From positions 1,030,861-1,094,860 of the forward strand of contig CANLZI010000001.1 in NCBI GenBank assembly GCA_947495555.1: a stretch of DNA of 64,000 bases. Direction: 5' to 3'. Positions within the stretch are counted from its first letter, which is position 1; each line of letters opens with the position of its first letter. Below, in pieces: positions 1-26,555 of this stretch. Source of the DNA: an uncultured Erythrobacter sp. GTDB taxonomy: Bacteria > Pseudomonadota > Alphaproteobacteria > Sphingomonadales > Sphingomonadaceae. Under the pieces are notes generated by a model, which worked only from the letters and a program-made list of their open reading frames with translations, was not told the DNA's origin and ran no database searches. The position numbers and the translations under genes are program-made.

Positions 1-606
1 GTGATAGACCCAGTCGCTGCGATGCGCCCCGTGGCGATAGAACAGATAGATATCTCCATTATCCATCTTCACCACCTGATTATACGTGCCGAAAGGCGGG
101 ATCGTGTCCAGCTCCTCCCACTCGGTGATGTCATAAGGTCGCTTCGACACGACATGCTTGTTATCACCGTAATGGTGATTACCAAGCGGGTTCTCACCCA
201 GCTCAGGCGTGCCGCCATGCCCGCCAAAGAAAATATGGATATACCCTGCATTATCGATGATCAGCGTCGGCTTGCCATGATTGTCGATCTTGCGAGTGGA
301 GTCTTTGCCCATCGCGCTGGCGCCGGCTTTGAACGGTCCGACCCACTCGCCAGTTTCGTGATTGTACGATGCGACATAGGGGTCTTCGAGCGGCCCCTGA
401 TAGCTCACATAGGTGATGCCATCCTTATGCTCACCGGCCGGATGCTGGACCACGGCAACCGCGTTTCCCAACCCGTTATCGGCGAAATATTCGGTCTGCA
501 TGGGCGCTGCTTCTGTGCTGCTTTGCGAACCATGGGCCGCGCTGCATCCGGTAAGCCCGCATATGCCAGCCGTGAATGCTGCTGCCAGGAGAAGAGAATG
601 TTTCAT
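1..606 (-). CDS. BNR_4 beta-propeller lipoprotein, candidate ulvan lyase (PL24/PL25-like), 3' part outside the window
   Basis: The frame is open from the ATG at 606 to base 1 (202 codons), so this is the N-terminal part of a longer protein. The leader ends in a lipobox (G-L-T-G-C, Cys21), so it should be a membrane-anchored lipoprotein. The body reads like the BNR_4 seven-bladed propeller family. His110 and His130 lie 20 residues apart, and Tyr175 and Arg191 lie 16 apart. The same spacings occur in the two other BNR_4 proteins here (18074-19531 and 25185-26555) and match, from memory, the catalytic His/His and Tyr/Arg pairs of a characterised PL25 ulvan lyase. It lies 23 bp downstream of the GH105 gene on the same strand, so lyase and unsaturated-uronyl hydrolase are probably co-transcribed. 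Family assignment is fairly firm; activity on ulvan is inferred. Confidence 0.75.
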   Translation of the reverse strand, partial: MKHSLLLAAAFTAGICGLTGCSAAHGSQSSTEAAPMQTEYFADNGLGNAVAVVQHPAGEHKDGITYVSYQGPLEDPYVASYNHETGEWVGPFKAGASAMGKDSTRKIDNHGKPTLIIDNAGYIHIFFGGHGGTPELGENPLGNHHYGDNKHVVSKRPYDITEWEELDTIPPFGTYNQVVKMDNGDIYLFYRHGAHRSDWVYH

Positions 607-629
607 GTATTTGGACCCTGCTTGGTGGT

Positions 630-1838
630 TCAAAGCATTTCGGATGCGAACAGCAACATGCCACCGGTTGCGTAAAGCTGGCTGGTGTCGGCATCGGTGG
701 TTTGCGGATCTTTGCCGATTTGCTGAACCCAGCCGACTTTGCCACTGTCCGTGGTGGCTTTGCGCATCGCATCCCACGCTTTGTCACGGGCAGCCTCATA
801 TTGCGCGCCCTCGATCATGCCGTTGTTCAGGCCCCACGCCAGACCAAAGCCGAAAAAGGCCGTGCCGCTGGTTTCGGGATTAGTCAGATATTCCGCATCC
901 ATCAGCGACGTTGGCCAATAGCCATCCTCTCTCTGGATTTCGACCAGTTTGGCGGCGAGGGTCTTGTAGGTCTTCACCATTAAAGGGCGCTCGGGATGGT
1001 CGGCTGGCATATCCTCAATAAAGCGGGCAAGTCCTGCAAACACCCAGCCATTGCCCCGGCTCCAGAATACAGACTCGCCATTGGGCGTCTTGGCGTCGAA
1101 GTAGCGGCTGTCGCGGAACAACAGGCTGGTTTCAGGGTCCTGCAGGTATTCGATAACAGCTCGCGTCTCTTTGGCTGCGTAATCGAGATAGCGTGGATCG
1201 CCCGAAACCTTAGTGGCCAGCGCCCATGATGGCGGGGCCATGAAGATAGCATCGGCCCAGCACCAACGGCGCTGGCAGGTGCCCTCTGTATGGCCATCCT
1301 CTGGCTCGATGAATTCAAGGCTCATTGTGTAATTCTGCGCGATGATATGGTCGAACACCTTGATCGACTTCTTCATCAGCGCCGGATTGTCATCGCGAAG
1401 GGCAATTGCACCATAGACAGCAGCGACCGCCTGATCATCGCCGTGCCAGACGCGGTCCCCCAGCTCCAAACCGTTCTCATAGGCATATTGCCGCACCCGG
1501 TTTAGCAGCTTCTCGTCACCCAATTTGGCTGCGTAGCGGTCCAGCCCGATATAGAATGCCGCTTTTACCCAGCCGCGCCCATATGAGCTTTCCGGAATTT
1601 TACGGTCGAGGTAGCTCATGTCTTCTTTGGCCTGCAGCTGCCAAGCAGCGACAGCGCAGCCGATTTCCTCTGCGGGCGCCTCTGATGGAGCGACCAGGGC
1701 CGGTGCTTGCCATTGCGGAACAATCGCAGCGCATGAACGCGCTCCACTATCACCAGAGTGATCATCGGCGAGCGCCGTGCCTGCCCCGGCCATGGCAATA
1801 GCCAGTGAACCAAAGGCGCTCAAATAACGGAATCTCAT
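630..1838 (-). CDS. GH105 unsaturated uronyl hydrolase, secreted
   Basis: A 402-residue GH105 alpha/alpha-barrel protein. It should remove the 4,5-unsaturated uronic acid that a lyase leaves at the non-reducing end of oligosaccharides. Family blocks in order: YGRGWVKAAFYIGL, HGDDQAVAAVYGAIAL, RRWCWADAIFMAP, FWSRGNGWVFAGL, ETSGTAFFGFGLAWG and a C-terminal GWVQQIG. The open frame extends 34 codons upstream, but the ATG at 1838 has a GGAGAG ribosome site and begins a good signal peptide (MRFRYLSAF... to ALA), so I start there. The partial BNR_4 lipoprotein follows by 23 bp. It is divergent from a sulfatase across a 164 bp promoter region. A paralogue lies at 30204-31421. Confidence 0.9.
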   Translation of the reverse strand: MRFRYLSAFGSLAIAMAGAGTALADDHSGDSGARSCAAIVPQWQAPALVAPSEAPAEEIGCAVAAWQLQAKEDMSYLDRKIPESSYGRGWVKAAFYIGLDRYAAKLGDEKLLNRVRQYAYENGLELGDRVWHGDDQAVAAVYGAIALRDDNPALMKKSIKVFDHIIAQNYTMSLEFIEPEDGHTEGTCQRRWCWADAIFMAPPSWALATKVSGDPRYLDYAAKETRAVIEYLQDPETSLLFRDSRYFDAKTPNGESVFWSRGNGWVFAGLARFIEDMPADHPERPLMVKTYKTLAAKLVEIQREDGYWPTSLMDAEYLTNPETSGTAFFGFGLAWGLNNGMIEGAQYEAARDKAWDAMRKATTDSGKVGWVQQIGKDPQTTDADTSQLYATGGMLLFASEML

Positions 1839-2002
1839 GAGGCAGCTCTCCACTTCTTTTCTGTTTGGCACATCACAGCACGCCTTTGATGAACTGCATC
1901 TTGCCTTATGATTTGGCGATTGCAATCCAGAATTGTTCATTTACGATCAAAATCGCGCATGGGCAAGCAGCTGCAGCGGCCTTTGCGCAAAGGAGAGAGC
2001 AT
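1839..2002. promoter_or_regulatory. Divergent promoter region, GH105 / sulfatase
   Basis: This 164 bp gap separates two divergent genes and must hold both promoters. It contains a perfect 14 bp palindrome, CCTTTGCGCAAAGG, at 1980-1993, whose right arm runs into the AGGAGAG ribosome site of the sulfatase. I did not find a convincing -35/-10 pair or a TGAYACCGGT operator here. Confidence 0.45.
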
Positions 2003-3424
2003 ATGGGGCGAATTTCGCGCAGAGAATTTTCCATCGGCGCCTTGCTTGGCGCGACGATGTTGTCCGGGTGCTTGCAAACGTACCAAGGAGACAGCACAGG
2101 CGAGGCCACAAACCTGTTGCTAATCATCATCGACGATCTGAACGATTGGGTGACAGCATTGGGCGATCATCCTCAGGTGAAAACGCCGCATATCGACGCG
2201 CTCGCAGCATCCGGCACGGTGTTTACCAATGCCCATGCTCAGGCGCCAATCTGCGGCCCCTCACGCGCCAGCCTGTTTTCCGGCCTCTATCCCACACAGA
2301 CGGGCATTTATGGGCAGATCAAGGATGCCGACCTAGGGCCAGCCGTGGCTGCCGCTTCTCCCACACTGCTGCTGCCGCAATATCTGCGCTCGCACGGGTT
2401 CTTTACCGCCGGGCGCGGCAAAGTGTCGCATCAAGGCGGGCAGGAAGGGATGTTTGACGAATACCACGCTCGCTCCGCGAAGAATGGCGACTACGGACCG
2501 AAACCGGAAAAGCGGATCAAGTGGGACAGCGACAAGACCCACACCGATTGGGGCGCCCACCCCAATACGGATGCAGAGATGATCGACCACATCACTGCGA
2601 CATGGGGCGCGCAGTTTCTTCAGCGCGAACATGCACAGCCTTTCATGCTGGCGCTGGGTTTCGTGCGCCCGCATGTGCCGTGGTACGTTCCCCAGCACTG
2701 GCTCGACAAGTTTCCTTTAGATGAAATAGCGTTGCCCAAGGTGCTCGCCAACGACCTTGGCGATGTGCCTCAGGCGGCCCGCGACCTTGCCGCTGTGCCA
2801 CAAATGCCGACGCTGGAATGGGCGATGGAAAACAAGGAGTGGCGCCCGATCATGCAGGCCTATCTCGCCTCGATCGCGTTCGTCGATCATTGCGTGGGCA
2901 TGGTGATGGAAAGCCTGCGCGCATCGGGCCGTTCCGAAGATACGCTGGTCTGTCTTGCCTCTGACAATGGATACCACTTGGGCGAGAAACAGCGGTTTGC
3001 CAAAATGTCTTTGTGGGGGCGCTCCACCCGCGTTCCATTGATGTTCGCAGGGCCTGGTATCCGCCCACAGGTAATCGCAGACCCGGTCGGTCTAATCGAT
3101 ATCTATCCCACAGCAATCGACATTCTTGGCCTTCCCGCAAATACGGAAAATGCCGGGCGCAGTCTGGCCCCGGTGCTTACCCAAGGCCAAGCTCTGCCCG
3201 TTAAACCGCAAGTCTCCGTCTACGGTGAAGGCAATTACGCGGTGATCGACCCGCACCACCGCTACATCCGCTATGCCGATGGGTCAGAGGAACTGTATGA
3301 TCTGAGCCAAGACCCAAATGAATGGGTCAATCTTGCCAATGATCCAACCCTTTCTGCGGTAAAAGACCGGTTGCGTGGATACATCCCCGCCAATCCTCGT
3401 GCTGACGTGATGGCGGTGCGATAG
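2003..3424 (+). CDS. S1 sulfatase, iduronate-2-sulfatase-like (S1_7-type), Tat/lipoprotein leader
   Basis: A 473-residue type I sulfatase that should hydrolyse a sulfate ester on an oligosaccharide. The nucleophile motif is C-G-P-S-R at Cys84, to be matured to formylglycine. The N-terminal metal site (IIIDDLNDW) followed by HPQVKTPHIDALA is typical of the iduronate-2-sulfatase/S1_7 branch. The ATG at 2003 has an AGGAGAG ribosome site; the frame is open 46 codons further upstream without a better start. The leader has a twin-arginine (ISRREF) and a lipobox (L-S-G-C, Cys23), so export may be by Tat with lipid anchoring. It converges on the GH5 gene with 8 bp between stops. The exact sulfate position (Rha-3S or uronate-2S) cannot be read from sequence. 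Confidence 0.88.
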   Translation: MGRISRREFSIGALLGATMLSGCLQTYQGDSTGEATNLLLIIIDDLNDWVTALGDHPQVKTPHIDALAASGTVFTNAHAQAPICGPSRASLFSGLYPTQTGIYGQIKDADLGPAVAAASPTLLLPQYLRSHGFFTAGRGKVSHQGGQEGMFDEYHARSAKNGDYGPKPEKRIKWDSDKTHTDWGAHPNTDAEMIDHITATWGAQFLQREHAQPFMLALGFVRPHVPWYVPQHWLDKFPLDEIALPKVLANDLGDVPQAARDLAAVPQMPTLEWAMENKEWRPIMQAYLASIAFVDHCVGMVMESLRASGRSEDTLVCLASDNGYHLGEKQRFAKMSLWGRSTRVPLMFAGPGIRPQVIADPVGLIDIYPTAIDILGLPANTENAGRSLAPVLTQGQALPVKPQVSVYGEGNYAVIDPHHRYIRYADGSEELYDLSQDPNEWVNLANDPTLSAVKDRLRGYIPANPRADVMAVR

Positions 3425-3432
3425 GGCGCAGA

Positions 3433-4966: not shown

Positions 4967-6904
4967 CTATTTTAGGATGATATTGTCCTCGCCGACGAAG
5001 AACCGATCGCTATGCCCATCTGCAAAGCGGACCGTGACTGCATAATTGTAGCGCGCTGAGCCGGCGCGCACCTCAATCATGGGTGGCACATCGCCATCGA
5101 ACGGCAAAACGAGACTAATCAGTTCGGGACTTTCGGCTTCCAACCTGGCCGAGATTCGCCTGAGATATTCATCATAGCGAAATTTTGTGCCGCGGCGGAT
5201 GAGGGTAACGTCGCTCAGATCATCCTCAGCCACGTGCAGCTGCCTGGTGCCTGAAAACACCGCGAGCAACGCCTTGCTGCCAGTGCGTCTCCCATGGATA
5301 ATAACCGACTTGCCAGTCTGCTCCACGCGGTTGCCCGGATGGGTGGCATATCGGCTTTCAAACAGTTTTGGACCGCTATTCTCGGTCCGCGCATCATCGC
5401 GGAAAATGATATACGGGCCCGGAGTGCGCACGAAGTACAGCTTGCGGTCCGCCTGCCCCACAAACGCCGCGTCAAAGTCATAGGCCTCTTCCGCCTGCCC
5501 GCGCACAAACGCGCCGCGCTTGTCTTCGCGGTAATCGACAATCCGCCCGTCGCCGCCCTTGATCTGCTCTGCCCCGTCAATCTTGAGGGTGGTGTGAGCG
5601 TCGCTGCGTTCGAGCCAATATTGCGGATCGATCAAGAACCCTTCGCCATGCGCGTAAAAAGTGACCGCATTCTCATCTTGATGATCGTGCCCACGGTGCT
5701 TGTCATAGCCGGACTTGAAAGAGACATGGGCCGCATCTTCGCCGGTCCATTTGTCGCGCAAAAAAACACGGCCTGATTCAAATCTGTGGCCCAGCGCAAG
5801 GCCCGCTGCCACTGGGTCCACTGGACTGACCGGCTGATTCCCCCAAATAAACAAAAAAGGCGCGGTGTAAGAAACACCGAAATAGGAACCCAGCTCATCG
5901 GTCGATCCCGACTTTTCCAGACTTTCTAGCGTGGCCCACACTTGATCACCACGGTTATGGCGAAGCGCACCGATCAAGGCGGCGACTTCTGCCGGCCGGT
6001 CAAAATTGTCGTTGAGAGGCAGCATCAATCCATCAAACGGCAGCAGCTTCCACACCATCTGATCACCCACCAGCGCAAGTGTCTCATCGGCCTCAGCGAT
6101 AAGGTCAGGGCCGCCATGCCGTCTAAGCGCCATGGAAAACGGCACAGCCCCGCCCAACCCGTATCCCACATAGTGGACGCCTTCGGTGGCGTAGCCGGTC
6201 GAGTCCGCAAAAGTCTGAAAGAATACGCGGGTGCGGCGCGTCGCCATCTCGACCCATTCAGATTTGTTCCCCAGCGCCAGAGCGACCAACCCTAAGCCGC
6301 CAAAATGCACCGAATTGTGATTGGAAGATGATACGCCGGGCACATCTTTGCCCCAGGTTGTATTCGCGTCAAACAGGATCGCGCCAATCTCGTCCATTTC
6401 AGCGCGCACTTCGGCACGCTCGGCCTCGCTCAACGTGTCATACAGCCAGTCATATCCAATCGCGAAAGCTTGCGCTGCATCCCCTTGTTGAAGGTGGCTT
6501 TGCCAGTGCTTCTTGTTGCCCGGCTCAGTCTGGCGGACCACCGCGAGCAGGATGTCTCGCCCCTTTTCTGCGTAACGCGGATCACCGGTCAGGTAAGTCG
6601 CAAATCCCAACGTGCCGAGCCGGTTTTGCAAGGCCCGGCCTGCAGTGCCCAACGCGTTTTGCTTCGATACGAGCGGATAGGGGTCGGTCGGTGTGGCAAG
6701 AAACTGATCCGCTTTGCGCAGGATTTCCACTCGCGCTGAGCGCAACCAAGCAAGACTATACGAGCGTGCCTCTATCTGTTGATGATCGCCCGCGCCAAAG
6801 AACAGGTCAGGCCGTTCCTGCGCTGATAGCGGATCGATTGATAATCCAGATGCCACCGTCAAGGCAGCACCAGTCAATACAACGGTTCGATATGATATTG
6901 GCAT
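4967..6904 (-). CDS. Heparinase II/III-like protein, candidate polysaccharide lyase
   Basis: A 645-residue secreted protein (leader ending L-S-A-Q) with the alpha/alpha-toroid plus beta-sandwich plan of the heparinase II/III superfamily. Visible blocks: toroid helices around 90-330 with SSSNHNSVHFGG and GYATEGVHYVGYGLGG, then the hallmark GHDHQDENAVTFYA near residues 400-415 at the start of the sandwich. The Asn-His, Tyr and late His blocks are where catalytic residues sit in PL15/PL17/PL21-type lyases. I cannot place it in a numbered family; ulvan-active members of this superfamily are known (I recall PL40), so an ulvan or oligo-ulvan lyase is plausible. Upstream (6991-7010) are two tandem GNTCAATA elements. 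Confidence 0.78.
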   Translation of the reverse strand: MPISYRTVVLTGAALTVASGLSIDPLSAQERPDLFFGAGDHQQIEARSYSLAWLRSARVEILRKADQFLATPTDPYPLVSKQNALGTAGRALQNRLGTLGFATYLTGDPRYAEKGRDILLAVVRQTEPGNKKHWQSHLQQGDAAQAFAIGYDWLYDTLSEAERAEVRAEMDEIGAILFDANTTWGKDVPGVSSSNHNSVHFGGLGLVALALGNKSEWVEMATRRTRVFFQTFADSTGYATEGVHYVGYGLGGAVPFSMALRRHGGPDLIAEADETLALVGDQMVWKLLPFDGLMLPLNDNFDRPAEVAALIGALRHNRGDQVWATLESLEKSGSTDELGSYFGVSYTAPFLFIWGNQPVSPVDPVAAGLALGHRFESGRVFLRDKWTGEDAAHVSFKSGYDKHRGHDHQDENAVTFYAHGEGFLIDPQYWLERSDAHTTLKIDGAEQIKGGDGRIVDYREDKRGAFVRGQAEEAYDFDAAFVGQADRKLYFVRTPGPYIIFRDDARTENSGPKLFESRYATHPGNRVEQTGKSVIIHGRRTGSKALLAVFSGTRQLHVAEDDLSDVTLIRRGTKFRYDEYLRRISARLEAESPELISLVLPFDGDVPPMIEVRAGSARYNYAVTVRFADGHSDRFFVGEDNIILK

Positions 6905-8284: not shown

Positions 8285-8339
8285 CTGATGATCTGATCTG
8301 CTCTAGCAGGCAAGATTGAAAGTAGCAGGGAGAGGGAAA

Positions 8340-9341
8340 TTGCTTGTCCATTCAAGGCGTCGGCATTTGCAGATGCTGTCCGTGGCAGGGCTCTGGGGGC
8401 TGCTACCAGGGTGTGCACGTATAGGTGCATCCAACCGCATAACGCTTGCTCATACTCTGGACGAGCAGCACCCGGTTCATCTGGCCATGGTGCGCTTCCG
8501 TGATGAGTTGATCCGCCTTTCCGGATCCACGCTGGCGGTAGAGATATTCCCCAATGCCCAGCTCGGAACCGAGCGAGAACTGGTTGAACTGGTTCAACTT
8601 GGCGCGATCTCGATGACCAAGGTCTCCTCGCTCTCACTGGAAAATTTCGCTCCGGATATGGGCGTTTACTCTTTGCCTTATTTGTTTGACGACAGCGAAC
8701 ATCAGAAACGCGTTGTGCAAAGCGAGATTGGAGAGGAAATCCTGGGCGGCCTCAGCAAGATTTTGCTCAAAGGTATGGGCCATTATGACGCTGGTGCACG
8801 TAGCTTTTACATGACCGGCGGGCCGGTGACCACGCCCGAAGATATCCGCGGCAAAACCTTGCGCGTCCTTCCAAGTGAAGCCTTGATCAAAACCGTTGAG
8901 ACGTTTGGCGGTGCAGCCACACCGATTGCCTTTGGCGAGCTTTACGCCGCGCTGCAGCAGGGCGTTGTCGACGGGGCAGAAAACAATCCTCCCAGTGTTC
9001 TGAGCGCCAGGCATCACGAGGTGTGCAAATACTATTCCTTGGACGAGCATGTTAGCGCCCCGGATGTCGTGGTGATGAGCCAGAAGATTTGGGATGGCCT
9101 CACCGAAGAACAGCAAGGCTGGGCCAAGGCGGCGATGGCCGCTTCTGAAAGCTACCAGCGCGAGTTGTGGCGCCAGGCATCAGATGACGCCCTCGCCGAA
9201 ATTGAAGCAAGTGGTGTCACGATCAATAGGCCTGATAAAGCGCCTTTCCGCGCCGCCGTTGCCGAGTTCAAGGCCAGTTTTGATGGCACACGGATCGGTG
9301 AACTCGCAGCCCGGATCGAAGCCATGTCGGAGATTTCATAA
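8340..9341 (+). CDS. dctP: TRAP transporter substrate-binding protein, DctP family
   Basis: A 333-residue extracytoplasmic solute receptor of the DctP type; such receptors usually bind organic or sugar acids, including uronates. Family features: IEIFPNAQLG-like block (AVEIFPNAQLG), FGELYAALQQGVVDGAENN and the R-V-L-P strand. I chose the TTG at 8340 because it follows a strong AGGGAGAGGG site and starts a leader with RRRHL and a lipobox (L-L-P-G-C), suggesting Tat export and lipid anchoring. A TTG at 8316 in the same frame is possible. Its stop overlaps the start of the DctQ gene. In this setting the likely ligand is an uronate-containing product or unsaturated uronate. Confidence 0.88.
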   Translation: MLVHSRRRHLQMLSVAGLWGLLPGCARIGASNRITLAHTLDEQHPVHLAMVRFRDELIRLSGSTLAVEIFPNAQLGTERELVELVQLGAISMTKVSSLSLENFAPDMGVYSLPYLFDDSEHQKRVVQSEIGEEILGGLSKILLKGMGHYDAGARSFYMTGGPVTTPEDIRGKTLRVLPSEALIKTVETFGGAATPIAFGELYAALQQGVVDGAENNPPSVLSARHHEVCKYYSLDEHVSAPDVVVMSQKIWDGLTEEQQGWAKAAMAASESYQRELWRQASDDALAEIEASGVTINRPDKAPFRAAVAEFKASFDGTRIGELAARIEAMSEIS

Positions 9342-9832
9342 TGCGTATAATGGTCGAGAAAGCGCTCGCCGCACTTCTGGTTCTTCTGTTCAGCGCTACG
9401 GTCATCACCGTTATCTGGCAAGTAATCGGACGCTACGTTCTGGAAGCGCCAAGTTCGGCAACAGAAGAGATTGCTCGTTTCCTCCTTATCTGGCTCGGCA
9501 TGGTTTCAATGGCCTATGCATTTGCCAAGCGCATGCACGTGGGTGTGGATCTCATTTCCGCCAGACTGTCACCATCCGGGCGTAAGACTTCAGCGCGAGC
9601 GATCTGGCTGGCATGCGCTGCGTTCGCTCTTGCGGTCATGGTTTACGGAGGAGGGGCGCTTGTCAATATCACGGCGACCCTCGGCCAGACATCGGCCGCG
9701 CTTGGCCTGCCCATGTGGACTATTTACAGTATCATGCCTGCCTGCGGTTTGATAATTTCATATTTCGCGATCTCTTTCTTGATCGAAGGGGCTGCGACCG
9801 AAGCTGAAAGCACTTCAGGAGAAGTCCAATGA
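9341..9832 (+). CDS. dctQ: TRAP transporter small membrane subunit, DctQ family
   Basis: A 163-residue inner-membrane protein with four predicted transmembrane segments (about 7-28, 45-65, 88-108, 128-150) and the E-E-I-A-R-F-L-L-I-W block of DctQ. It pairs with DctM and the receptor to drive Na+-coupled uptake of the bound acid. Its ATG overlaps the TAA of dctP, and its stop overlaps the dctM start (ATGA), indicating translational coupling. Confidence 0.9.
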   Translation: MRIMVEKALAALLVLLFSATVITVIWQVIGRYVLEAPSSATEEIARFLLIWLGMVSMAYAFAKRMHVGVDLISARLSPSGRKTSARAIWLACAAFALAVMVYGGGALVNITATLGQTSAALGLPMWTIYSIMPACGLIISYFAISFLIEGAATEAESTSGEVQ

Positions 9833-11124
9833 CCACTGGACTCATTCTCGTACTTGTTTTCTTCCTACTGGTAGCATTCAATGTCCCTATCGGATTTGCA
9901 ATTGGCCTTTCAACGCTGGCCGCGCTGGTGTCTATTATGCCACTCGATCCGGCGGCGACCACAATGGCTCAGCGCATGGTTGCTGGGCTCGACAGCTTCA
10001 CCTTGCTGGCCATCCCCTTCTTCATACTCAGCGGCTATCTGATGGGAGCAGGTGGCGTTGCAAGAAGGCTGATTGATGCAGCCAAGGGCTTGATTGGCGC
10101 ACTGCCGGGAGGACTGGCTGTGGTCAGCATCATCTCAAGCATGCTATTCGGATCCGTCTCTGGCTCTGCAGTTGCCGCAACATCGGCAATTGGGTCCTTC
10201 ATGGTTCCGGCGATGAAAAAGGAAGGCTATGATGCACCGTTTGCAGCATCGGTGACCACTTCGGCATCGATCCTGGGTCTGTTGATTCCCCCATCAAATG
10301 TCATGATTGTCTATGCAGTCGCTGCTGGTGGCGTTTCAATCGGAGCGCTCTTTCTGGCCGGCTATGGCCCAGGCCTGCTTGCCGGACTTGCGTTGATCAT
10401 TGCTGCAATGATTGTCGCTCGCAAAGAAGGTTATCCAGTGTCTGAAAGACTGACTTTCAGGCAGTCCATCAGCACAATCGTGCCCGCCATCCCCAGCGTT
10501 GCGATGCTCATTATCGTTGTTGGGGGTATCGTTGCGGGGTTTTTCACGGCCACAGAAGCAAGCGCCTTTGCGGTCCTGTATTCCTTGTTTCTCGGCATTT
10601 TCCTCCACCGGGAAATGACTTGGAAAGAATTGCCAGCCGTGATCGTCAAATCTGCAGAAACAACCGGCATCGTGTTGTTTCTTATCGCTGCTTCAACCGG
10701 AATGGCATGGATGCTCGCCTATTCCGGATTGCCCGGTGCCATCGCGCAGTCGCTGTTGACTATCTCGGACAATCCATTGCTGCTTTTGCTCTTGATCAAT
10801 GTCATTCTGTTGATTGTCGGCGCATTCCTCGACATCACTCCAGCCATATTGATATTCACGCCCATTCTGCTGCCGGTTGCCGTAGCTCTGGGAATTTCGC
10901 CGGTCCATTTCGGGATCATACTGATTTTCAACTTGTCGATTGGGTTATGCACACCGCCTGTGGGAACAGTGCTGTTCGTCGGGGCCGCTGTGGGAGAGAC
11001 CAAAGTCGCTGCGATGATAAAACCGATGATCCCTCTGTATCTCGCAATGCTTGCGGCGTTGGCGGTCACGACCGCTGTCCCTGCATTGTCAGAGGCATTG
11101 CCAAGGTTCTTCGAAATGATGTGA
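9829..11124 (+). CDS. dctM: TRAP transporter large permease, DctM family
   Basis: A 431-residue permease of about 12 membrane helices. Diagnostic blocks are FNVPIGFAIG, IPFFILSGYLMGAGG, FGSVSGSAVAATSAIG and LLIPPSNVMIVYA. Length and motifs are normal for DctM. It overlaps dctQ by four bases, completing a three-gene TRAP system. The next gene, an NCS1-type permease, starts 113 bp downstream with its own possible promoter. Confidence 0.94.
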   Translation: MTTGLILVLVFFLLVAFNVPIGFAIGLSTLAALVSIMPLDPAATTMAQRMVAGLDSFTLLAIPFFILSGYLMGAGGVARRLIDAAKGLIGALPGGLAVVSIISSMLFGSVSGSAVAATSAIGSFMVPAMKKEGYDAPFAASVTTSASILGLLIPPSNVMIVYAVAAGGVSIGALFLAGYGPGLLAGLALIIAAMIVARKEGYPVSERLTFRQSISTIVPAIPSVAMLIIVVGGIVAGFFTATEASAFAVLYSLFLGIFLHREMTWKELPAVIVKSAETTGIVLFLIAASTGMAWMLAYSGLPGAIAQSLLTISDNPLLLLLLINVILLIVGAFLDITPAILIFTPILLPVAVALGISPVHFGIILIFNLSIGLCTPPVGTVLFVGAAVGETKVAAMIKPMIPLYLAMLAALAVTTAVPALSEALPRFFEMM

Positions 11125-16673: not shown

Positions 16674-18032
16674 TCATTCGAACCACAGACGATCCAAGGC
16701 CATTTCCCCCTCGCCCAGCTGTTCCAGCCGAATGACTAGGCTTTCTTTGTCGGCAAGCGGACCAAGAGGTATCCGCCAGCGATTCGCCCCAGTAAGCTCA
16801 TGATTCACGATTGCCTTTGTCGCGCCTTCCCGACGTATCGACAGAATGAAATCTACCGCCGAAGTTCCTACCATTTCCAGAACAACTGTATCCTTGCCTC
16901 CTAATCCGCGAATATTTGGGAAGCTGAGCTCTCCGACTGGGCCGTCGAGAACAACATCAAACCCGTTGGATGCAAGGCGCCTCTGACGCTTGGCAAACCC
17001 GCTTCGCGCAAAGTACTCTTCCGCTTCGATTGATTCAGATGCAGCGCGGTACTCCCCAACCCCGGTCAAATCGACCCGGATAGGCGCGATGCTGCCGTCA
17101 TCACGATAATGAATGTAGCTGATAAATGTATCGCGAAAATATCGGTTTCCGCTTTGCGAAATGTCACAATAGGCAAAGTAGGTCTGGCCGTGCCAGCTGA
17201 AGAACGATCCATGCCGCCCCTGCTGTGGACCTGTTGGCCAGGTTGGTTCTGATAATCCGGTCGGAAAGCTCGCATCAGTAATCAGCGCGCCGCGATACTC
17301 GTAAGGGCCATAGAGCTTGGATGATGTGGCATAGAATGCGCCCCACGACAGATAGTACAAATCGCCATTCTTGTGCAGAAACGGCTTGTCGTCGGTCAGT
17401 TTGCCATCGAACGGTGTCCCTTCCGCGAAAGTGTAAGGGCCTTTCGCACCGACAATTTCGACCTTGCGCGGTTCCTCCGCCAAGGAGATCATATCGTCTC
17501 GGAGACGTGCAAGATAATAGTCCCATACACCAAAGACGATAAAGCGGTCATCCCCTTCTGCAAACAGGCCCGGGTCATACTCATGCGTTGGCGTAAGATC
17601 GTCCATCAATAGAGGTTTGCCAAGCGGATCGCTCCATGGCCCTACCGGGCTATCCCCCACAACAACCCCCGTCTGCCTGTTGGCCTCGGAAAAATACCAA
17701 AAGTACTTCCCGTTCTTCTCCGCGACATCCGCAGCCCAGGCCGATGCAAAATTTGGCTGCGCTTTGAGATATGTCTGATCAGGATATAGCGTCGACCGAA
17801 GCGTCCAATTGACAAGGTCCTCAGAGGACCAGACTTGCCAATCTTCCATGACAAAATCCCCATTTCGCGCGGACTTGTCATGTGAGGCGTAGAGATACGC
17901 TGTGCCATCAAAGATATGGATATGCGGATCGTTGACACCCTGATTTACTATTATCGGATTCCGCGCATTGGTCGGGGCGATGGTTGCCGCCGTAAGCAGC
18001 AATGCCGCGCCTACCCCCCGCCATATCCGCAT
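16674..18032 (-). CDS. GH43-family glycoside hydrolase with C-terminal domain
   Basis: A 452-residue secreted five-bladed propeller hydrolase. The catalytic base Asp lies in QGVNDPHIHIF just after the signal peptide, and downstream family blocks are AWAADVAEKNGKYFWYFS, HEYDPGLF and GLSEPTWPTGP (acid Glu region). A beta-sandwich of about 110 residues follows (around 340-452). In this locus a beta-xylosidase or alpha-L-arabinofuranosidase-like activity on xylose side units is likely. The ATG at 18032 starts the signal peptide; the open frame runs 73 codons upstream into the preceding gene, which argues against the longer form. It is the last gene of the TBDT1-led series, 41 bp after the BNR_4 gene. 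Confidence 0.82.
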   Translation of the reverse strand: MRIWRGVGAALLLTAATIAPTNARNPIIVNQGVNDPHIHIFDGTAYLYASHDKSARNGDFVMEDWQVWSSEDLVNWTLRSTLYPDQTYLKAQPNFASAWAADVAEKNGKYFWYFSEANRQTGVVVGDSPVGPWSDPLGKPLLMDDLTPTHEYDPGLFAEGDDRFIVFGVWDYYLARLRDDMISLAEEPRKVEIVGAKGPYTFAEGTPFDGKLTDDKPFLHKNGDLYYLSWGAFYATSSKLYGPYEYRGALITDASFPTGLSEPTWPTGPQQGRHGSFFSWHGQTYFAYCDISQSGNRYFRDTFISYIHYRDDGSIAPIRVDLTGVGEYRAASESIEAEEYFARSGFAKRQRRLASNGFDVVLDGPVGELSFPNIRGLGGKDTVVLEMVGTSAVDFILSIRREGATKAIVNHELTGANRWRIPLGPLADKESLVIRLEQLGEGEMALDRLWFE

Positions 18033-18073
18033 ACCTGGCACTTCTCTTCGATCTCGCTGGTACTTCACGAACA

Positions 18074-19531
18074 TCATTCGAACGCGATATCGAACACCTG
18101 CAACGGTGAAGATACGCCGCGCGCTTCCGGCGCGCGGTGCCACAGCATCGTAGCCTGCCCTTTCTCGAGAAGTGAGAGGTCCCACGTTATGTAGCCTCCT
18201 TGCGGATCGAACTTGCGGCTTTTGTCGACCTCCATCGGAAGCCGTTTCCATTTGCGGAAGTTAGCCTTGCGCTCGGCGTAATAGATCTGCCCTTTATCGC
18301 GCCCTACAAAGGCGTAAAGCCGGTCGCCAACCACCGCGAGCGTCGCGTCATTTCCGTCAAAATTGGTCCGTTGCTGGCTCCAGCTGCCATCGGGCTTGCC
18401 CAGGTAATGAAAGTAGTAGGCTTGCGTTGCGCCCGGCTGCGGAAGATGGCGTAGCAGCACATGCATATCACCCGATATCGGATCGACTGTCGAGGTGATC
18501 GAGGGATTGCTGGGCCCGAGCCCCTTGGGAATTTCGATCACGGGCCCGCCAAGATTGTCGATCGAAATCGCTTCTCCTTTTTCGGTGTCGGCGATGACCG
18601 ATCCATCCGCGCGCAGCCAGGTGCGTCCCTCGTCGAGCGATTTGGCATAGAAGAGTCCGTGGTTGCAAAATATCTCGCTCCGCGATGCGGTGGTGTAGTC
18701 ACACGGTCTCTCGCGAAACACCCATGCCGCGTGAAGCGAACCGTCACCGCCAACTTGCATTCCGTTAGCGAGGTAGGGGCCGCGCGTGGTCTCAAGACCT
18801 TTGTACGTGCCGCGCCGGTCCGATACCGAATGTACTTTCCCCCATCGACCAGTCTCGGCATCATACTTGCTCAGCCTCATATCACCGCCATAAGAACCAC
18901 CTGTGCGGAAATAGACAACGAGATTTCCACCCGGGAATGCCTTGAAAGATGGATAGGTGACATTCAGCCTAACCTTGGGGTCCCCGCCTAGGTTTTCGGC
19001 GTATTTGAACACGCTTTTGTCCCACTTCACGGAAGTGGGATTGTCTGCGACGCCAGTGGCCGTTGCAGCGTAATTCATTTGTGGACGATTGTGATGATCA
19101 AAGGAAATGTGGATCACGCCATCGCCAGCTGAAATACCGATCGTTTGTCGATTGTGAGCATCGTCGGACGTCAGCTTGTAACCTTCCAGCACCGAATGCT
19201 CCCAACCAAAAGCTCCAAGCTTGCGACGCGAGACTACGACAAAGGTAGCAGCTTCTTCGCTTGGCTTGCTGCGATCTCGACCGGAATAGAAGACGACATA
19301 TTGATAGCCATTGTGGCTCACCGCCTGTGCGCCTAACGGACCTGCAAAACGTGGCTTCCCGTCGCGCGAACGCTCCATCCCGTCTGACGTGTGGGAGTTG
19401 GCCGTCAATTGATCCCAGCCGGTGATATGGGCGCGCTTGGCTTCCTCCGCGCCCTCGGCCAGCAGCGCCGAGCTGCTCAAGATGAAACAGGATGCTGCGA
19501 GCGTCGGCGTTAGTTTGGGTATTGAGATCAT
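18074..19531 (-). CDS. BNR_4 beta-propeller, candidate PL24/PL25-type ulvan lyase (A)
   Basis: A 485-residue secreted protein of the BNR_4 propeller family with a signal peptide to about residue 25. Key residues: His126 (DDAHN), His146 (FDHHN), Tyr193 (VTYPSF) and Arg209 (VVYFRT). The His pair is 20 apart and the Tyr-Arg pair 16 apart, as in the other two BNR_4 proteins here and, from memory, in the PL25 lyase of Pseudoalteromonas. Expected action: beta-elimination at uronic acid next to rhamnose-3-sulfate. Its ATG overlaps the stop of the DUF5060 gene (TGATG), so translation is coupled. Confidence 0.8.
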   Translation of the reverse strand: MISIPKLTPTLAASCFILSSSALLAEGAEEAKRAHITGWDQLTANSHTSDGMERSRDGKPRFAGPLGAQAVSHNGYQYVVFYSGRDRSKPSEEAATFVVVSRRKLGAFGWEHSVLEGYKLTSDDAHNRQTIGISAGDGVIHISFDHHNRPQMNYAATATGVADNPTSVKWDKSVFKYAENLGGDPKVRLNVTYPSFKAFPGGNLVVYFRTGGSYGGDMRLSKYDAETGRWGKVHSVSDRRGTYKGLETTRGPYLANGMQVGGDGSLHAAWVFRERPCDYTTASRSEIFCNHGLFYAKSLDEGRTWLRADGSVIADTEKGEAISIDNLGGPVIEIPKGLGPSNPSITSTVDPISGDMHVLLRHLPQPGATQAYYFHYLGKPDGSWSQQRTNFDGNDATLAVVGDRLYAFVGRDKGQIYYAERKANFRKWKRLPMEVDKSRKFDPQGGYITWDLSLLEKGQATMLWHRAPEARGVSSPLQVFDIAFE

Positions 19532-21988: not shown

Positions 21989-24900
21989 TCAGTTGTCCTG
22001 AATTGTGACGGTCACCGGTCCGACTAGACCGGAAGGAATCAGTAGGTCGCCTGGTTTCTGAAAGTATTGCGTGGCAAAGGTCCGCCGCGGACCTGGCGGA
22101 GGTGGCAGATTTGAACTGTACCATTCGACCATATCCCGCTTGGGCAGGTTTTCCTCCGGCCGGTATCCGATATTGGCCTCCGGTTCATATCCGCTGGTAT
22201 CCGGCAACGCTGCGTCGCCAATCAAGCGGTTTACCCATAGATTGGCGACTTCGATTTCCACTAAGTTGCGACCCTCACGAACCGCTGTAGAAATATCGAT
22301 TGCATAAGGCGCAGTCCAAACCGTGCCGAGTTCCTGACCGTTCACACGAACACTCGCCACCGCTTCAACTTGCCCGAGATTGAGCGCCATAGGCGACGCA
22401 CTGTCGAGCTCATCCGCCTTCAATTCAAACGCTGTGCGATAGGTTGCCTTGCCAGAGAAATGGTGGATTTCGGGATTGTCGCTTGTGCTCCAGTCGAACA
22501 GGGCTGTGCCGGTCAGATCATCTACATCGCCATAAGCCGGATCGAAACTGATCGCCCATCCCTGATCAAGAATGGCCAGGACTCTCGTCGCCGTAGATGG
22601 CGCATACCCTATGGGCGCGAACGCAAGCTTTTGGTCAAACACCACAAAGCGCGATTCATAGGGAGCCAGCTCCAGTGCGATATTCGTGCAGCCGTCAGCG
22701 TCCACAAAGCCGGCTAATCTTTGTCTACCCCCTGTAACCGGGTGCCATTCTTCACCCTGTTTTCCTCTCACCCTAAAACACAAATCGAACTCTTTGTTTT
22801 GCTCTGAATCATTGAAGACAAAGAATATATCAACCGAACCAGACTGTCTTTGCGTGAAAGAAGGTAGATTGCCGCGAGAAGAAACGCGCGGCATTAAGCC
22901 AGCTGCCTGGAACACCTCTTTCGGCATATCGCCGCGGTGGCCAAAGGCAACGGGCACTCCAGCTCGGACCGCCTCTTCAAGACGCGCACGCTCTGCCGCG
23001 GAAGGAACCCGGTCGCGGGGCCACCAGATCATGGAATATTTCGTTCCATTCGAAAGCACGAACGCGCCGTCCACAAAATTGCTGCGATCCAGCAAGGTGT
23101 GAGTGTCGACGCAATCGAAATCCACTCCAGCCGGCAGGTGCTTGCCGGACTCTGATTTTTTCGGGCAGGTGACCGGACTGTTCGATCCCACCGCCATCGC
23201 AACATCGGACACCGCGAGGCCTTGCCTCAGAATGTGTTGGCCACGCGCCATATACATAAACCAAGCCGCGCCGCCTTTATCCCACCATGGCTGAGTGCGA
23301 TCAAAATGAGAGCCCCAGCGGTTCATAGTCATGCCGGGCATGACATGGGTATTCGCCTGATGCGCAAACCGGTGGAAGAAGAACTGGTTTACCCCTGCAA
23401 TCCATGCGCGATCACCCCATTTCTTTCCAAAAGCTGGATCGAAGAACCAGTTGTCGTCCCACACCGCTGTGAAAGCCTCTGCGGCGATCACCGGCTTGCC
23501 ATAAATACGGCCGGCGGAAACAGCTCCGTTGAGGTTGGACAGATCATCGCGGCGAACCCAAAACTCGCCGGCGGGGATCGAGGCAACCGAAGCAACGTTC
23601 AGCTCATCAAACGGCCCAAGCCCGTATGGCTGGATCAGGCTTTCCAAGCCTTCTTCTTCCATCAGGCGTCCGAATTCACCGTAATAATTGTCGTTGATCA
23701 ACTGCGCGTTGAAGCTGCGGATTTTGGCAAACATGTCGGTTGTCGCCGCCCCGCTGGAGACAAACCGCCCTGCATATATAGGCAACCAGTCTTTCAGATT
23801 GATGTCATATAATTGCTGGAACCCGGTATCGTAACCCTGCGTCCAATTTTGCCCACCAACCTCATAGCTGTCGATCATCACGCCGGCAGTGGCCGTTGGC
23901 GCAACCGCTCTAGCTCGCTTGATCACCGGCGCGATAAAGGCGTCATAATGCACACCAAAAGAGGACGCATCGAACTTGTCAACTTCAAGCCCGTTGCCCT
24001 CTGGAGATGGGTTTACATTGCGCGCGCCTGTGGACGTGTATCCAAACCGCATGACGGTCCACTGACCGGCAGGTAATGTCGTTTGCAAACGCCCGTATTC
24101 ATCAACAAACTGAGTGAGATCGCGGATTGCTTCGCGGCTGACCACAGCGCCGACCGGCGGCGTCGCATGAACTGGCAACTGATTGCCCGGAACATAGCCC
24201 ATGCCGCTATGGCCCGAGGCATTCGCAACCTGTGCCAGTTGGGAGAGTTCAATCTCCCCAATCAGCGCCTTATTGTCCAAAGAAACGCGGAAATGACGCG
24301 CTTTGATCGGCGCGAATGTCGCATCGACCTCCCATTCCACGCGCAACAAACGGGTTTTCTTAAATTCGCCGACGTTCCGAAAACTGACCCCGTCATCGGA
24401 TGCTTGCAGCACAATGTTAATGTCGCGTTCGGCAATATTGCCAACGGACAGGCTGCGAATGGGCACAGGTCGATCATAGCTGAATTGAACCCAGCCCGGC
24501 TCGTCTTGTGTTGCAGAGAAAAGGCTCTGTGTGAACGGCTCTCCATCAGTCACTCGGTCAAGGTTGAACTGCGGATCGGATGAGGAGAGAGTTGCAATGT
24601 TCGAGCGATCCGCGATTTCTCCGGCCAAAGACGGATAGGCAATGATAGCAATATCACGGTAAAGCCCCTCGACGGCTCCCGGTTGTTTCAGCTCAAGCGA
24701 AATCACACCGCCATCGACAACAGCCTCGCTCCATACGATCCGCTTCATCGATTTTTCGGGAGGGACCCAAGGGCCCCCAGTAGAGGACCAACCGTCGGCA
24801 TTGTGGAACGAAAATTTCAGCCCAAGCCGCTCGCATTCCGACGCCACATGCTCAATCAGTTTGAGATGTTCCGGCGAATTGAATTTGATAGGGCCGTAGG

Positions 24901-25183
24901 AAATCCCCTGCGTGACATGGAACAGCACGATCCCGCCGATCCCTACACGCTCCATTGCTTCAAGATCCTTGGTGATACCTTCGCGTGACATATTTCCGCT
25001 CATCACGTGATACCACGTCCATGGCCGCGCTTCAGGAGGAGGCGCGGTGAACTGCTCGTAAAGCTGGTCTATTTCTGTTTGGGCTGAGACGGGGGGGGGC
25101 GTCATGATCAGTGCCAGCAGTGCCCCTGTGACTGCCGCGCTTGCGCGCAGAATATTGCGAGCCACGTCAGCCATGACGGTCAT
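21989..25183 (-). CDS. GH106-family alpha-L-rhamnosidase-like enzyme
   Basis: A 1064-residue secreted enzyme, close to the usual GH106 length. Family marks: ARPWTWYHVMSGNMSREGIT and GIGGIVLFHVTQG near the N-terminus, FSFHNADGWSSTGGPW, a central MIDSYEVGGQNWTQGYD with a likely catalytic Glu, FFFHRFAHQANTHVMPGM, and a C-terminal GH2-like sandwich (LGQVEAVASVRVNGQELG). It should remove terminal alpha-L-rhamnose, probably after desulfation. I start at the ATG at 25183, two bases beyond the stop of the upstream BNR_4 gene; 25174 is an alternative. The codons for Pro29-31 form a run of nine C on the coding strand (25091-25099). Confidence 0.85.
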   Translation of the reverse strand: MTVMADVARNILRASAAVTGALLALIMTPPPVSAQTEIDQLYEQFTAPPPEARPWTWYHVMSGNMSREGITKDLEAMERVGIGGIVLFHVTQGISYGPIKFNSPEHLKLIEHVASECERLGLKFSFHNADGWSSTGGPWVPPEKSMKRIVWSEAVVDGGVISLELKQPGAVEGLYRDIAIIAYPSLAGEIADRSNIATLSSSDPQFNLDRVTDGEPFTQSLFSATQDEPGWVQFSYDRPVPIRSLSVGNIAERDINIVLQASDDGVSFRNVGEFKKTRLLRVEWEVDATFAPIKARHFRVSLDNKALIGEIELSQLAQVANASGHSGMGYVPGNQLPVHATPPVGAVVSREAIRDLTQFVDEYGRLQTTLPAGQWTVMRFGYTSTGARNVNPSPEGNGLEVDKFDASSFGVHYDAFIAPVIKRARAVAPTATAGVMIDSYEVGGQNWTQGYDTGFQQLYDINLKDWLPIYAGRFVSSGAATTDMFAKIRSFNAQLINDNYYGEFGRLMEEEGLESLIQPYGLGPFDELNVASVASIPAGEFWVRRDDLSNLNGAVSAGRIYGKPVIAAEAFTAVWDDNWFFDPAFGKKWGDRAWIAGVNQFFFHRFAHQANTHVMPGMTMNRWGSHFDRTQPWWDKGGAAWFMYMARGQHILRQGLAVSDVAMAVGSNSPVTCPKKSESGKHLPAGVDFDCVDTHTLLDRSNFVDGAFVLSNGTKYSMIWWPRDRVPSAAERARLEEAVRAGVPVAFGHRGDMPKEVFQAAGLMPRVSSRGNLPSFTQRQSGSVDIFFVFNDSEQNKEFDLCFRVRGKQGEEWHPVTGGRQRLAGFVDADGCTNIALELAPYESRFVVFDQKLAFAPIGYAPSTATRVLAILDQGWAISFDPAYGDVDDLTGTALFDWSTSDNPEIHHFSGKATYRTAFELKADELDSASPMALNLGQVEAVASVRVNGQELGTVWTAPYAIDISTAVREGRNLVEIEVANLWVNRLIGDAALPDTSGYEPEANIGYRPEENLPKRDMVEWYSSNLPPPPGPRRTFATQYFQKPGDLLIPSGLVGPVTVTIQDN

Positions 25184-25184
25184 C

Positions 25185-26555
25185 TTATCGAGGGATCTTG
25201 TGAAGCCGCAGCGTGGATGCGGGGGGAATCTCGCCACGCGCCTGATCCTGTGCCGGTGGGTTGGCCTCCCAGCTGAGGTAAAAATCATGAGCGCTAGTCG
25301 GCGACGTGCCTTCGGCTTTTCTCACAAATTGGGTAAGCTCAAAGTTGTTCTGAAAACTTCCGATAACCTGCGGAATAGATGTGTAGCTGCCAACCGTCAG
25401 GGTGCGATTGGTCGACGCGTCAACGATAAATTCAATCTCTTGACCGTCACGCTTCGCCCGTACACGTATCGTGCCGTCATCCCCGATATAGGGATCTTCC
25501 GGCACAAGGATCGAGACATTTAGGCTGCCGCCGCGATCCAAGAACTGCTTGCTGTCGGCCCAGTCGCTGATCTGATGGGTTGTCCACCCCTCGCCCGATT
25601 TCCGCGCCAGCATGATCTGCGTGTCGCCGTTTGGGTCATTCTTGTAGTAAGAAATCATGGGCCGATTAGCGGCATCAAAACCGATCCTTTTCTGCCCGTT
25701 CAGCATGCCACCAAAGGTCGGCACGGGATCAACAATTTCTCCCGTCGAACGGATCAAAGGCAAGGCTACCTGATTGCCGTTGGAATCCTCCCAATTTACC
25801 AGATCGGGACTGCGCACGTATGACAGGTTATTGTTCGTTGCTGCAGACGGTGTCTCGCGCCAAACCCAGATCATATGAAACTTGCCATCCGGGCCAAGGA
25901 CAGGGCCAGTATAATAGGCGCCGCGTTCGTCTTCTCCGTCGAAAAACTGGCCATCGTGCATCAGTGACCAAGTCAGCGTATCGGTATCAAATCGGTGGTA
26001 ATAATACCGGCCATTGCCGCTCCCACCCAAACGATAGATTGCAATCAGACGCCCTTCGCGGTCGTGCATGAAACGGGGATAGGTTACGTTCTGGTCCCGC
26101 TCTTGGCTGATGATGTAATCAACCTGCTTCAGCGAACGAACGTTCCACGGCTCGGTCGAACGGAAATAGACCAGCGGGTCATTGTGCATATTACCCATCA
26201 CATGGATGTAGCCCTTTTCGTCGACATCGACGGTCACATAATTGTGGCTGTCCCAGCCAACGAAGCTAGGCACTTTCTGATACCGCCAAGGCGTGCGCTG
26301 ATGCGCGCGGTGAGCAATGCTCATCTGCCGGTTGGCATCGTAATAAGCAATGATCTGATGTTCGCCGCGCTGGATCATCTGCGCGAAAACACGGTGGCCT
26401 GACCAAGTCAAATCTACGGCCTCGACCTCGCTAGCGAGGTTTAGCTGCGCATCCGCTAATCGATCGCTCGGTTGGGCTAATGCCTGCGGAGATGCAACAG
26501 CTACTGAGAGCAGCAGACCGGAAAAACGCTGAGCTCTTCGCCGCATTCGAAACAT
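25185..26555 (-). CDS. BNR_4 beta-propeller, candidate PL24/PL25-type ulvan lyase (B)
   Basis: A 456-residue secreted BNR_4 protein with signal peptide ending A-L-A-Q. His104 (WDSHNY), His124 (GNMHND), Tyr159 (VTYPRF) and Arg175 (IAIYRLGG) repeat the 20- and 16-residue spacings of the other two. It is clearly a different subgroup from protein A (18074-19531). The ATG at 26555 follows AAGGA; an ATG at 26546 is possible. It is the first enzyme gene after the TBDT at 26648-30064, separated by 92 bp containing a hairpin, and abuts the GH106 gene. Confidence 0.8.
   Translation of the reverse strand: MFRMRRRAQRFSGLLLSVAVASPQALAQPSDRLADAQLNLASEVEAVDLTWSGHRVFAQMIQRGEHQIIAYYDANRQMSIAHRAHQRTPWRYQKVPSFVGWDSHNYVTVDVDEKGYIHVMGNMHNDPLVYFRSTEPWNVRSLKQVDYIISQERDQNVTYPRFMHDREGRLIAIYRLGGSGNGRYYYHRFDTDTLTWSLMHDGQFFDGEDERGAYYTGPVLGPDGKFHMIWVWRETPSAATNNNLSYVRSPDLVNWEDSNGNQVALPLIRSTGEIVDPVPTFGGMLNGQKRIGFDAANRPMISYYKNDPNGDTQIMLARKSGEGWTTHQISDWADSKQFLDRGGSLNVSILVPEDPYIGDDGTIRVRAKRDGQEIEFIVDASTNRTLTVGSYTSIPQVIGSFQNNFELTQFVRKAEGTSPTSAHDFYLSWEANPPAQDQARGEIPPASTLRLHKIPR

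Follow-up and report, generated by a model that had tools for sequence, protein, structure and literature searches.

Introduction

The closest described relatives of the proteins treated here are lyases of the families PL24, PL25 and PL42, across which a His-His-Asp motif is conserved (PMC10951650); the PL25 triad is also conserved in GH145 (PMC8406133), and the PL42 enzyme FoRham1 has been compared with GH145, PL24 and PL25 (PMC8377490). The former GH145 proteins BT3686, BACINT_00347 and BACCELL_00856 (PDB 5MUK, 5MUM and 5MVH) now belong to PL42. Lyase activity has been reported for PL42/GH145 enzymes (PMC8377490, PMC8406133), which split off the rhamnose at the chain end; the unsaturated glucuronate so formed is removed by GH105 (PMC8406133). 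Here we analyse a stretch of 64,000 nucleotides from an uncultured Erythrobacter sp. (GCA_947495555.1, contig CANLZI010000001.1, positions 1,030,861 to 1,094,860; "the window" in what follows) that encodes three propeller proteins of this kind, named P1 (1-606), P2 (18074-19531) and P3 (25185-26555). Erythrobacter is listed among seaweed-surface genera (PMC10233909).

A different route to the same end has been described in the ulvan degrader Formosa agariphila. There, the oligosaccharide rhamnose 3-sulfate (Rha3S)-glucuronate/iduronate (GlcA/IdoA)-Rha3S is desulfated, GH78 action uncovers a saturated uronate, and from this a dehydratase (P29_PDnc) makes the unsaturated end (PMC8511951). The task, removal of rhamnose and then of uronate from the non-reducing end by way of an unsaturated uronate for GH105, is the one that we consider below for the window locus.

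Results

P1, P2 and P3 each match Pfam BNR_4 (PF15892) and account for all three BNR_4 matches in the 2.78 Mb assembly. Their pairwise identity is 16-21%, in agreement with a first-pass annotation of the window which had described the sequence around a shared set of residues as very different. P1 is cut by the left end of the window; its full length of 468 aa comes from the genome sequence (L004:14061-15467). Residues of P3 are numbered from the ATG at 26555; counting from an upstream TTG adds 11.

From similarity, catalytic and zinc columns and clade, P1 is predicted to be a genuine PL25 ulvan lyase and an additional member of that family, which upholds the first-pass annotation on this protein. 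It matches the PL25 structure 5UAM with E=3.1e-187 (phmmer, residues 29-465) and is identical to PLSV_3936 (PDB 5UAM, 5UAS) at 259 of 433 aligned residues (59.8%). Columns were compared in an L-INS-i alignment of 110 rows made up of P1-P3, PDB fragments of PLSV_3936, BT3686 and FoRham1, and BNR_4 relatives, after removal of duplicates, of rows with <300 residues, of fragments contained in other rows and of copies of the window's proteins. P1 agrees with PLSV_3936 at the catalytic His123, His143, Tyr188 and Arg204, at all four Zn ligands (His208, His264, Cys266 and His278) and at the binding residues Asn122, Lys125 and Tyr246 (for the roles of the Zn-ligand and binding residues see PMC13193363). 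No weighty sequence difference separates the two; what sets P1 apart is its origin in an Erythrobacteraceae-type genome and its lipobox, LTGC. A simple lipobox pattern was positive in 22 of 39 PL25 rows. P1 probably sits on the cell surface as a lipoprotein.

P2 and P3 had likewise been taken for PL25-like ulvan lyases, a proposal that we could not sustain. Searched against PDB with phmmer, P2 finds FoRham1 (7ESL, E=5.2e-33) and then BT3686 (3.2e-16), while P3 finds BT3686 (5MUK, E=8.2e-38) ahead of the remaining ex-GH145 structures and of FoRham1 (8.8e-15). PL24 structures are matched weakly and in part (6e-4 by P2 and 2.6e-5 by P3), and neither protein matches a PL25 structure at E<=1. Foldseek ranks FoRham1 (7ESL/7ESK) first for P2 and BACCELL_00856 (5MVH) first for P3; the AlphaFold models used are of low confidence (mean pLDDT, the predicted local distance difference test, 54.5 for P2 and 63.2 for P3) and serve as support only. 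Both proteins retain the FoRham1 columns Asp83, His85, His105, Tyr150 and Arg166, as well as Ser170, Tyr202, Arg220 and Asn275 (Arg331, Tyr26 and Glu381 lie outside the PDB fragment compared). Asn275 contacts O2/O3 of rhamnose (PMC8377490) and is not kept in any of 18 PL24 rows. At the rhamnose-binding Gln276, P3 has Gln299 (TTG count) and P2 has Ser344. A PL25 identity of P2 and P3 was rejected on the missing PDB match and on the Zn-ligand columns, which differ in both; a PL24 identity was rejected on the weak, partial matches and on the separate PL24 clade described below.

P2 shares 34% identity with FoRham1 (PL42 L-rhamnose-α-1,4-D-glucuronate lyase; PDB 7ESK, 7ESL, 7ESN) over 279 aligned residues of the fragment compared. 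It differs by Ser344 and by an extra residue between the two His, and it is a bacterial protein from a sulfatase-rich, ulvan-type locus whereas FoRham1 is a fungal enzyme active on gum arabic. P3 shares 30% identity with BT3686 over 297 aligned residues, including the anterior His, His, Tyr and Arg columns. It lacks the posterior His, like the lyase-only BACCELL_00856, and differs from BT3686 in falling into a separate clade and in being linked to PL25 and sulfatase genes rather than to arabinogalactan protein (AGP) genes. The PL24 ulvan lyase LOR_107 (PDB 6BYP) has the fold and the four catalytic columns in common with P2 and P3; identity to a PL24 protein (L023:18134-19675) is 20% for P2 and 18% for P3. 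A possible new family had also been suggested. With PL42 members as the nearest relatives of P2 and P3, there is no call for an entirely new one; we regard the two as a probable new variant within PL42.

A tree with characterised PL24, PL25 and other ulvan lyases had been put forward as a check on the first identification; ours, with PL24, PL25 and PL42, places P1 with PL25 and P2 and P3 outside it. We built a quick tree of 109 rows and a careful tree of 76 of the 110 aligned rows, without most PL25 and named long-branch rows; support in the latter is given as ultrafast bootstrap/Shimodaira-Hasegawa-like approximate likelihood ratio test (SH-aLRT). P1 sits with 5UAM in the PL25 clade (98 in the quick tree, 100/100 in the careful tree). 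The remaining values all refer to the careful tree, where PL24 forms a clade of its own (100/100), as do ten P2-type rows including the window P2 (100/98). The P2-type proteins, FoRham1, a distant protein (L103) and PL24 make up one group (100/100). The P3 family of 34 rows (99/95; L098, a partial P3 of G698, was left out) excludes BT3686, which falls with L053. Within it, the 24 P3 proteins of PL25-carrying genomes, from Alpha- and Gammaproteobacteria and Verrucomicrobiota, are a single clade (97/90), and seven sphingomonad P3 proteins from genomes without PL25 form a separate group (100/96). Five columns separate the P3 proteins of the ulvan clade from seven other P3 proteins; none is a known catalytic residue and we attach no claim of specificity to them. 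PL42 as now defined, FoRham1 together with the ex-GH145 proteins, is not one clade on this tree, and the long branches, which the tree program flagged, call for caution.

The first-pass annotation had started from residue spacing. The residues that it named, H110/H130 and Y175/R191 in P1, H126/H146 and Y193/R209 in P2, and H104/H124 and Y159/R175 in P3, are all present, and its count of 20 and 16 in all three proteins is arithmetically correct. In P2, however, the second His sits in a doublet, H146-H147, and it is H147, at a spacing of 21, which aligns with PLSV_3936 His143, FoRham1 His105 and BT3686 His110. A spacing of 21 is found in all ten P2 relatives (and in the window P2) and in 18/18 PL24 rows, and a spacing of 20 in 37/37 PL25 rows, 37/37 P3 relatives, FoRham1 and BT3686. 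The equal spacing of 20 across P1-P3 is thus partly accidental. Spacing alone is weak evidence in any case, because a loose frame (HisX19His, then TyrX15Arg within 60 residues) turns up in about 6-7% of shuffled sequences (341, 291 and 344 of 5000 shuffles for P1, P2 and P3).

The alignment bears out the claimed correspondence to the PL25 catalytic residues. The PLSV_3936 columns His123/His143/Tyr188/Arg204 coincide with FoRham1 His85/His105/Tyr150/Arg166 and with BT3686 His90/His110/Tyr143/Arg159, and every row counted has H, H, Y and R there (37 PL25, 18 PL24, 37 P3-type and 10 P2-type rows, P1-P3 and the three PDB fragments; a gap at any of the four columns excluded a row from the count). 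The FoRham1 Asp83 column holds D in P1, P2 and P3 and Glu in 17 of 18 PL24 rows. FoRham1 Arg166 is described as the neutraliser, conserved in BT3686 (PMC8377490), and pairs here with BT3686 Arg159. Elsewhere, the triad Arg of BT3686 is named as Arg333 (PMC8406133); that column is Val in P3 and lies in a weakly aligned region where we do not trust column placement. The frame of P1-P3 is inherited, with homology rather than spacing carrying the evidence, and, as paralogues within a single superfamily of seven-bladed propellers, the three share an inherited β-elimination site of Asp, His, His, Tyr and Arg. The frame alone cannot indicate ulvan, because it is common to gum arabic and arabinogalactan lyases and to BT3686, which has a hydrolase site too (PMC8377490, PMC8406133, PMC10951650).

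The three genes lie in a locus whose gene content, read by Pfam, matches the sugars of ulvan and which appears to be a full ulvan utilisation island (Table 1). In total, Pfam finds five sulfatases, two GH88/105 proteins, two TonB receptors and one TRAP binding protein; GH5 and a sugar permease are further neighbours, and there are kinases and isomerases whose putative roles suit rhamnose, unsaturated uronate and xylose. The locus is collinear in three genomes of the same family, G041, G121 (which corresponds to an uncultured Erythrobacter, rated as the genus of the window genome) and G179 (Pontixanthobacter rizhaonensis RZ02). The common order is rhamnose isomerase, second GH88/105, TonB receptor, P3, GH106, DUF5060, P2, GH43, KduI, sulfatase, DUF4861, TRAP, LacI, GH5, sulfatase, first GH88/105 and PL25; in G121 the GH43 was not seen, its place coinciding with the join between two of the stretches examined. 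A second PL25 gene adjoins GH5 in all three genomes and none is present in the window's genome, where the site, flanked by GH5 and the heparinase-like gene, corresponds to 4902-4967, which suggests either a loss in this genome or a gain in the other three.

Table 1. Features of the window, with strand and the evidence for each assignment.
Feature	Position	Strand	Evidence or remark
P1, predicted PL25 ulvan lyase	1..606	-	Residues 1-202 of 468 inside window, rest outside
P1 codons H110; H130; Y175; R191	277-279; 217-219; 82-84; 34-36	-	
GH88/GH105 unsaturated uronyl hydrolase, copy 1	630..1940	-	Pfam PF07470, E=1.2e-57
Sulfatase 1	1865..3424	+	Pfam PF00884
Heparinase II/III-like protein	4967..6904	-	Pfam PF07940; best PDB E=8.8e-10, distant
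TRAP transporter genes	8316..11124	+	DctP 8316-9341 (Pfam PF03480); large subunit 9829-11124 (by reading)
Sulfatase 2	13876..15360	+	Pfam PF00884
GH43	16674..18251	-	Pfam; putatively xylose side
P2, probable PL42-type lyase nearest FoRham1	18074..19531	-	phmmer, Foldseek (low-confidence model), alignment columns, tree
P2 codons H126; H147 (homologous second His); Y193; R209	19154-19156; 19091-19093; 18953-18955; 18905-18907	-	
GH106 α-L-rhamnosidase	21989..25288	-	Pfam PF17132, E=6e-134
P3, probable PL42-type lyase nearest ex-GH145 BT3686 and BACCELL_00856	25185..26555	-	phmmer, Foldseek (low-confidence model), tree
P3 codons H104; H124; Y159; R175	26244-26246; 26184-26186; 26079-26081; 26031-26033	-	
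TonB-dependent receptor adjoining P3	26648..30085	-	Pfam PF00593, PF07715
GH88/GH105 unsaturated uronyl hydrolase, copy 2	30204..31565	-	Pfam PF07470, E=6.4e-71
Rhamnose catabolism (putative roles)	31465..36383		Pfam; isomerase-like 31465-32757 (-), aldolase/dehydrogenase fusion 32779-34926 (-), kinase 34962-36383 (+)
Unsaturated uronate catabolism (putative roles)	41264..43877	+	Pfam; KduI, short-chain dehydrogenase/reductase (KduD-like), PfkB kinase (2-keto-3-deoxygluconate kinase-like)
Second TonB-dependent receptor	43934-47074	+	Pfam PF00593, PF07715
GH3	47540-49945	-	Pfam; sugar assignment putative
Sulfatase	49930-51267	-	Pfam PF00884
GH78 rhamnosidase	51249-54137	-	Pfam PF17389 and others
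Sulfatase	59399-61093	-	Pfam PF00884
Sulfatase	61161-63362	+	Pfam PF00884

Several neighbours deserve mention in their own right. The heparinase II/III-like protein was seen in G041 and not in G121 or G179; it has a 51% identical relative in a PL25-bearing 18-kb stretch of a Paraglaciecola metagenome-assembled genome (L020), and may represent a further lyase or a counterpart of the Formosa dehydratase. A DUF5060 protein of 818 aa (19531-21987, minus strand) separates GH106 from P2, an arrangement kept in G041, G121 and G179, where the protein is 78-88% identical. Relatives of a β-helix protein (38494-40203, minus strand; best PDB E=0.01) stand beside PL25 in three other stretches (L010, L013, L024). 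The gene 3′ of P1 (L004:12999-14054, minus strand) was read as encoding a formylglycine-generating, sulfatase-activating protein and adjoins PL25 in several relatives.

The surveys of other genomes, with Bacteroidota outside their range, indicate how general the association is. BNR_4 proteins occur in 14 of the 298 genomes of a family sample and PL25 in five, all five of which carry both P2 and a P3 of the ulvan clade; the remaining 293 yielded no P3 of that clade, with one weak match (L041) left unclassified. A family-level repeat comprised only seven genomes and added no power. Among 21 genomes found by means of P1 peptides, 20 have a P3-family protein (one partial and not in the tree), which lies on a different contig from PL25 in five of the 20 and otherwise shares the PL25 contig, at <60 kb in 14 genomes and ~72 kb in one; part of the 127 BNR_4 matches in these genomes, mostly weak ones, were left unclassified. 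PL25 was present in 3 of 247 genomes of an order sample, from whose search P2 was left out. An ulvan-level P3 was found in one of the three and in 0/244 others; G491 has a more distant P3. This sample is biased, its centre G531 having been chosen when it was already known to have PL25 without P3 (the count becomes 1/2 without it). Its positive genome, G768, matches G687 (Neiella litorisoli), for which reason it does not add independently to the 21 and we call the sample gammaproteobacterial. P3 as a universal partner of PL25 is ruled out by the 1/3 of the order sample despite the 20/21 among the P1-peptide genomes. PL25 and P3 often go together among close relatives of P1, but not always.

In one sphingomonad genome, in which PL25 was not found, a P3-like gene (L069:8810-11520) adjoins a GH88/105 gene; a TonB receptor lies close by, and the six neighbouring genes scanned include no sulfatase. 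The P3-like protein and the GH88/105 enzyme may work as a lyase/GH105 pair on a Rha-GlcA polymer that carries no sulfate.

Discussion

The family placement, the conserved residues, the content of the locus and its synteny lead us to a model that we regard as moderately likely, in which P1 is an endo-ulvan lyase acting outside the cell while P2 and P3 are PL42-type and probably periplasmic exo-lyases that remove rhamnose from desulfated Rha-GlcA/IdoA ends. P1 would cut the Rha3S-(1,4)-uronate bonds of ulvan at the cell surface and the oligomers would be imported through the TonB receptors. A GH88/105 enzyme would then strip the unsaturated uronate and a sulfatase desulfate the exposed Rha3S, after which P2 or P3 would eliminate that rhamnose by β-elimination and leave a new unsaturated uronate for GH88/105, so that the cycle of sulfatase, lyase and GH88/105 could repeat. 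A single PL42-type elimination would in this way replace the two steps, GH78 and oligosaccharide dehydratase, of the Formosa agariphila route.

Taken by themselves, P2 and P3 are probably PL42-type L-rhamnose-α-1,4-uronate lyases, exo-acting and probably periplasmic, their signals being read as plain secretion signals. The lipobox pattern flagged the window P2 as well, on a Cys inside the hydrophobic stretch, which we do not believe. The further step, that P2 and the PL25-linked P3 clade are dedicated to ulvan and represent a new PL42 specificity, stripping desulfated rhamnose from Rha-GlcA or Rha-IdoA ends, is put forward tentatively. A division of labour among the three propellers, as suggested at the outset, is plausible. 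Elimination is syn in the GlcA case and anti in the IdoA case; that P2 and P3 might share out these two cases between them is a guess.

A number of observations weigh against this model. Ulvan is not among the known PL42 substrates, which comprise gum arabic and arabinogalactan caps (PMC8377490, PMC8406133), and the GH78 and GH106 enzymes of the locus could take off the same rhamnose. P2 lacks the Gln276 of FoRham1, and branches on the P2 side of the tree are long. P2-type proteins occur in only 8 of the 21 P1-peptide genomes, plus one distant case, and P2 is absent from the Sphingomonadaceae PL25 genome G682. An ulvan-level P3 is missing from two of the three PL25 genomes of the order sample, and other sphingomonads have P3-type genes without PL25 (L029-L034, L054). 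The locations of P1, P2 and P3 are taken from signal reading alone, and the lipobox pattern recurs in 3 of 10 P2 relatives (that of L108, from Catenovulum, looks real) and in 4 of 37 P3 relatives.

Of the other explanations, the one that survives best, though we think it unlikely, is that all three proteins are endo-acting ulvan lyases which differ in their preference for uronate or sulfation. The catalytic columns of P2 and P3 are those of PL24 and PL25, P2 belongs to the strongly supported group with PL24 and FoRham1 and shares the PL24 spacing of 21, and the content of the locus suits ulvan. Against this, both proteins match PL42 far better than PL24 or PL25, and both retain the rhamnose-contacting Asn275 that the PL24 rows lack. 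Still less probable, in our estimation, is that P2 and P3 are PL42 lyases for some other rhamnose-capped glucuronan, such as arabinogalactan-like side chains, that is eaten alongside ulvan. The action of the characterised PL42 enzymes on gum arabic or wine AGP (PMC8377490, PMC8406133) would agree with this, as would the P3-like gene that stands beside GH88/105 without a sulfatase among its scanned neighbours in L069. However, the PL25-linked P3 clade is distinct from the P3-like proteins of genomes without PL25, the genes are syntenic with PL25 and sulfatases, and Pfam recognised no galactanase in the scanned proteins (the subfamily of the GH43 was not examined).

It is very improbable that P2 or P3 acts from its rear face as a retaining α-L-rhamnosidase by way of the equivalent of BT3686 His48. 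The window P2 does have a His, His73, in that column, but its ten relatives have Tyr (9) or Phe (1) and P3 has Arg74 by the TTG count (Arg63 by the ATG), so that the His is private to this P2 among the rows seen; a dual front and rear active site in P2 was rejected on the same ground. Chance or convergence as the origin of the frame, to which its frequency among shuffles and the reliance of P2's spacing of 20 on the wrong His of the doublet might point, is ruled out by an alignment anchored on solved enzymes, with BNR_4 matched by all three proteins and the columns invariant among the counted rows.

The catalytic frame shared by P1, P2 and P3 is already published. In the library searched, we found no PL42 enzyme in an ulvan locus in the literature that joins PL42 or GH145 with ulvan (PMC8377490, PMC8406133 and PMC10951650 deal with gum arabic and AGP; PMC7536576 and PMC6627129 were judged from the listing), and no exolytic rhamnose-glucuronate lyase of an ulvan locus among the paper titles matching that topic. 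In the main texts of two papers on gammaproteobacterial ulvan loci (PMC6431674, PMC13050008) the terms BNR and neuraminidase do not appear, nor does GH145 in that of PMC13050008, where alone it was sought. A His/His/Tyr/Arg frame by itself should not be read as the mark of an ulvan lyase. If P2 and P3 do act on ulvan oligomers, they would fill the step for which Formosa relies on a rhamnosidase together with a dehydratase, and membership of the P3 clade would mark, at the sequence level, one group of marine organisms that degrade ulvan. Erythrobacteraceae and several Alteromonadales would then break down ulvan oligomers by a repeating cycle of sulfatase, lyase and GH88/105.

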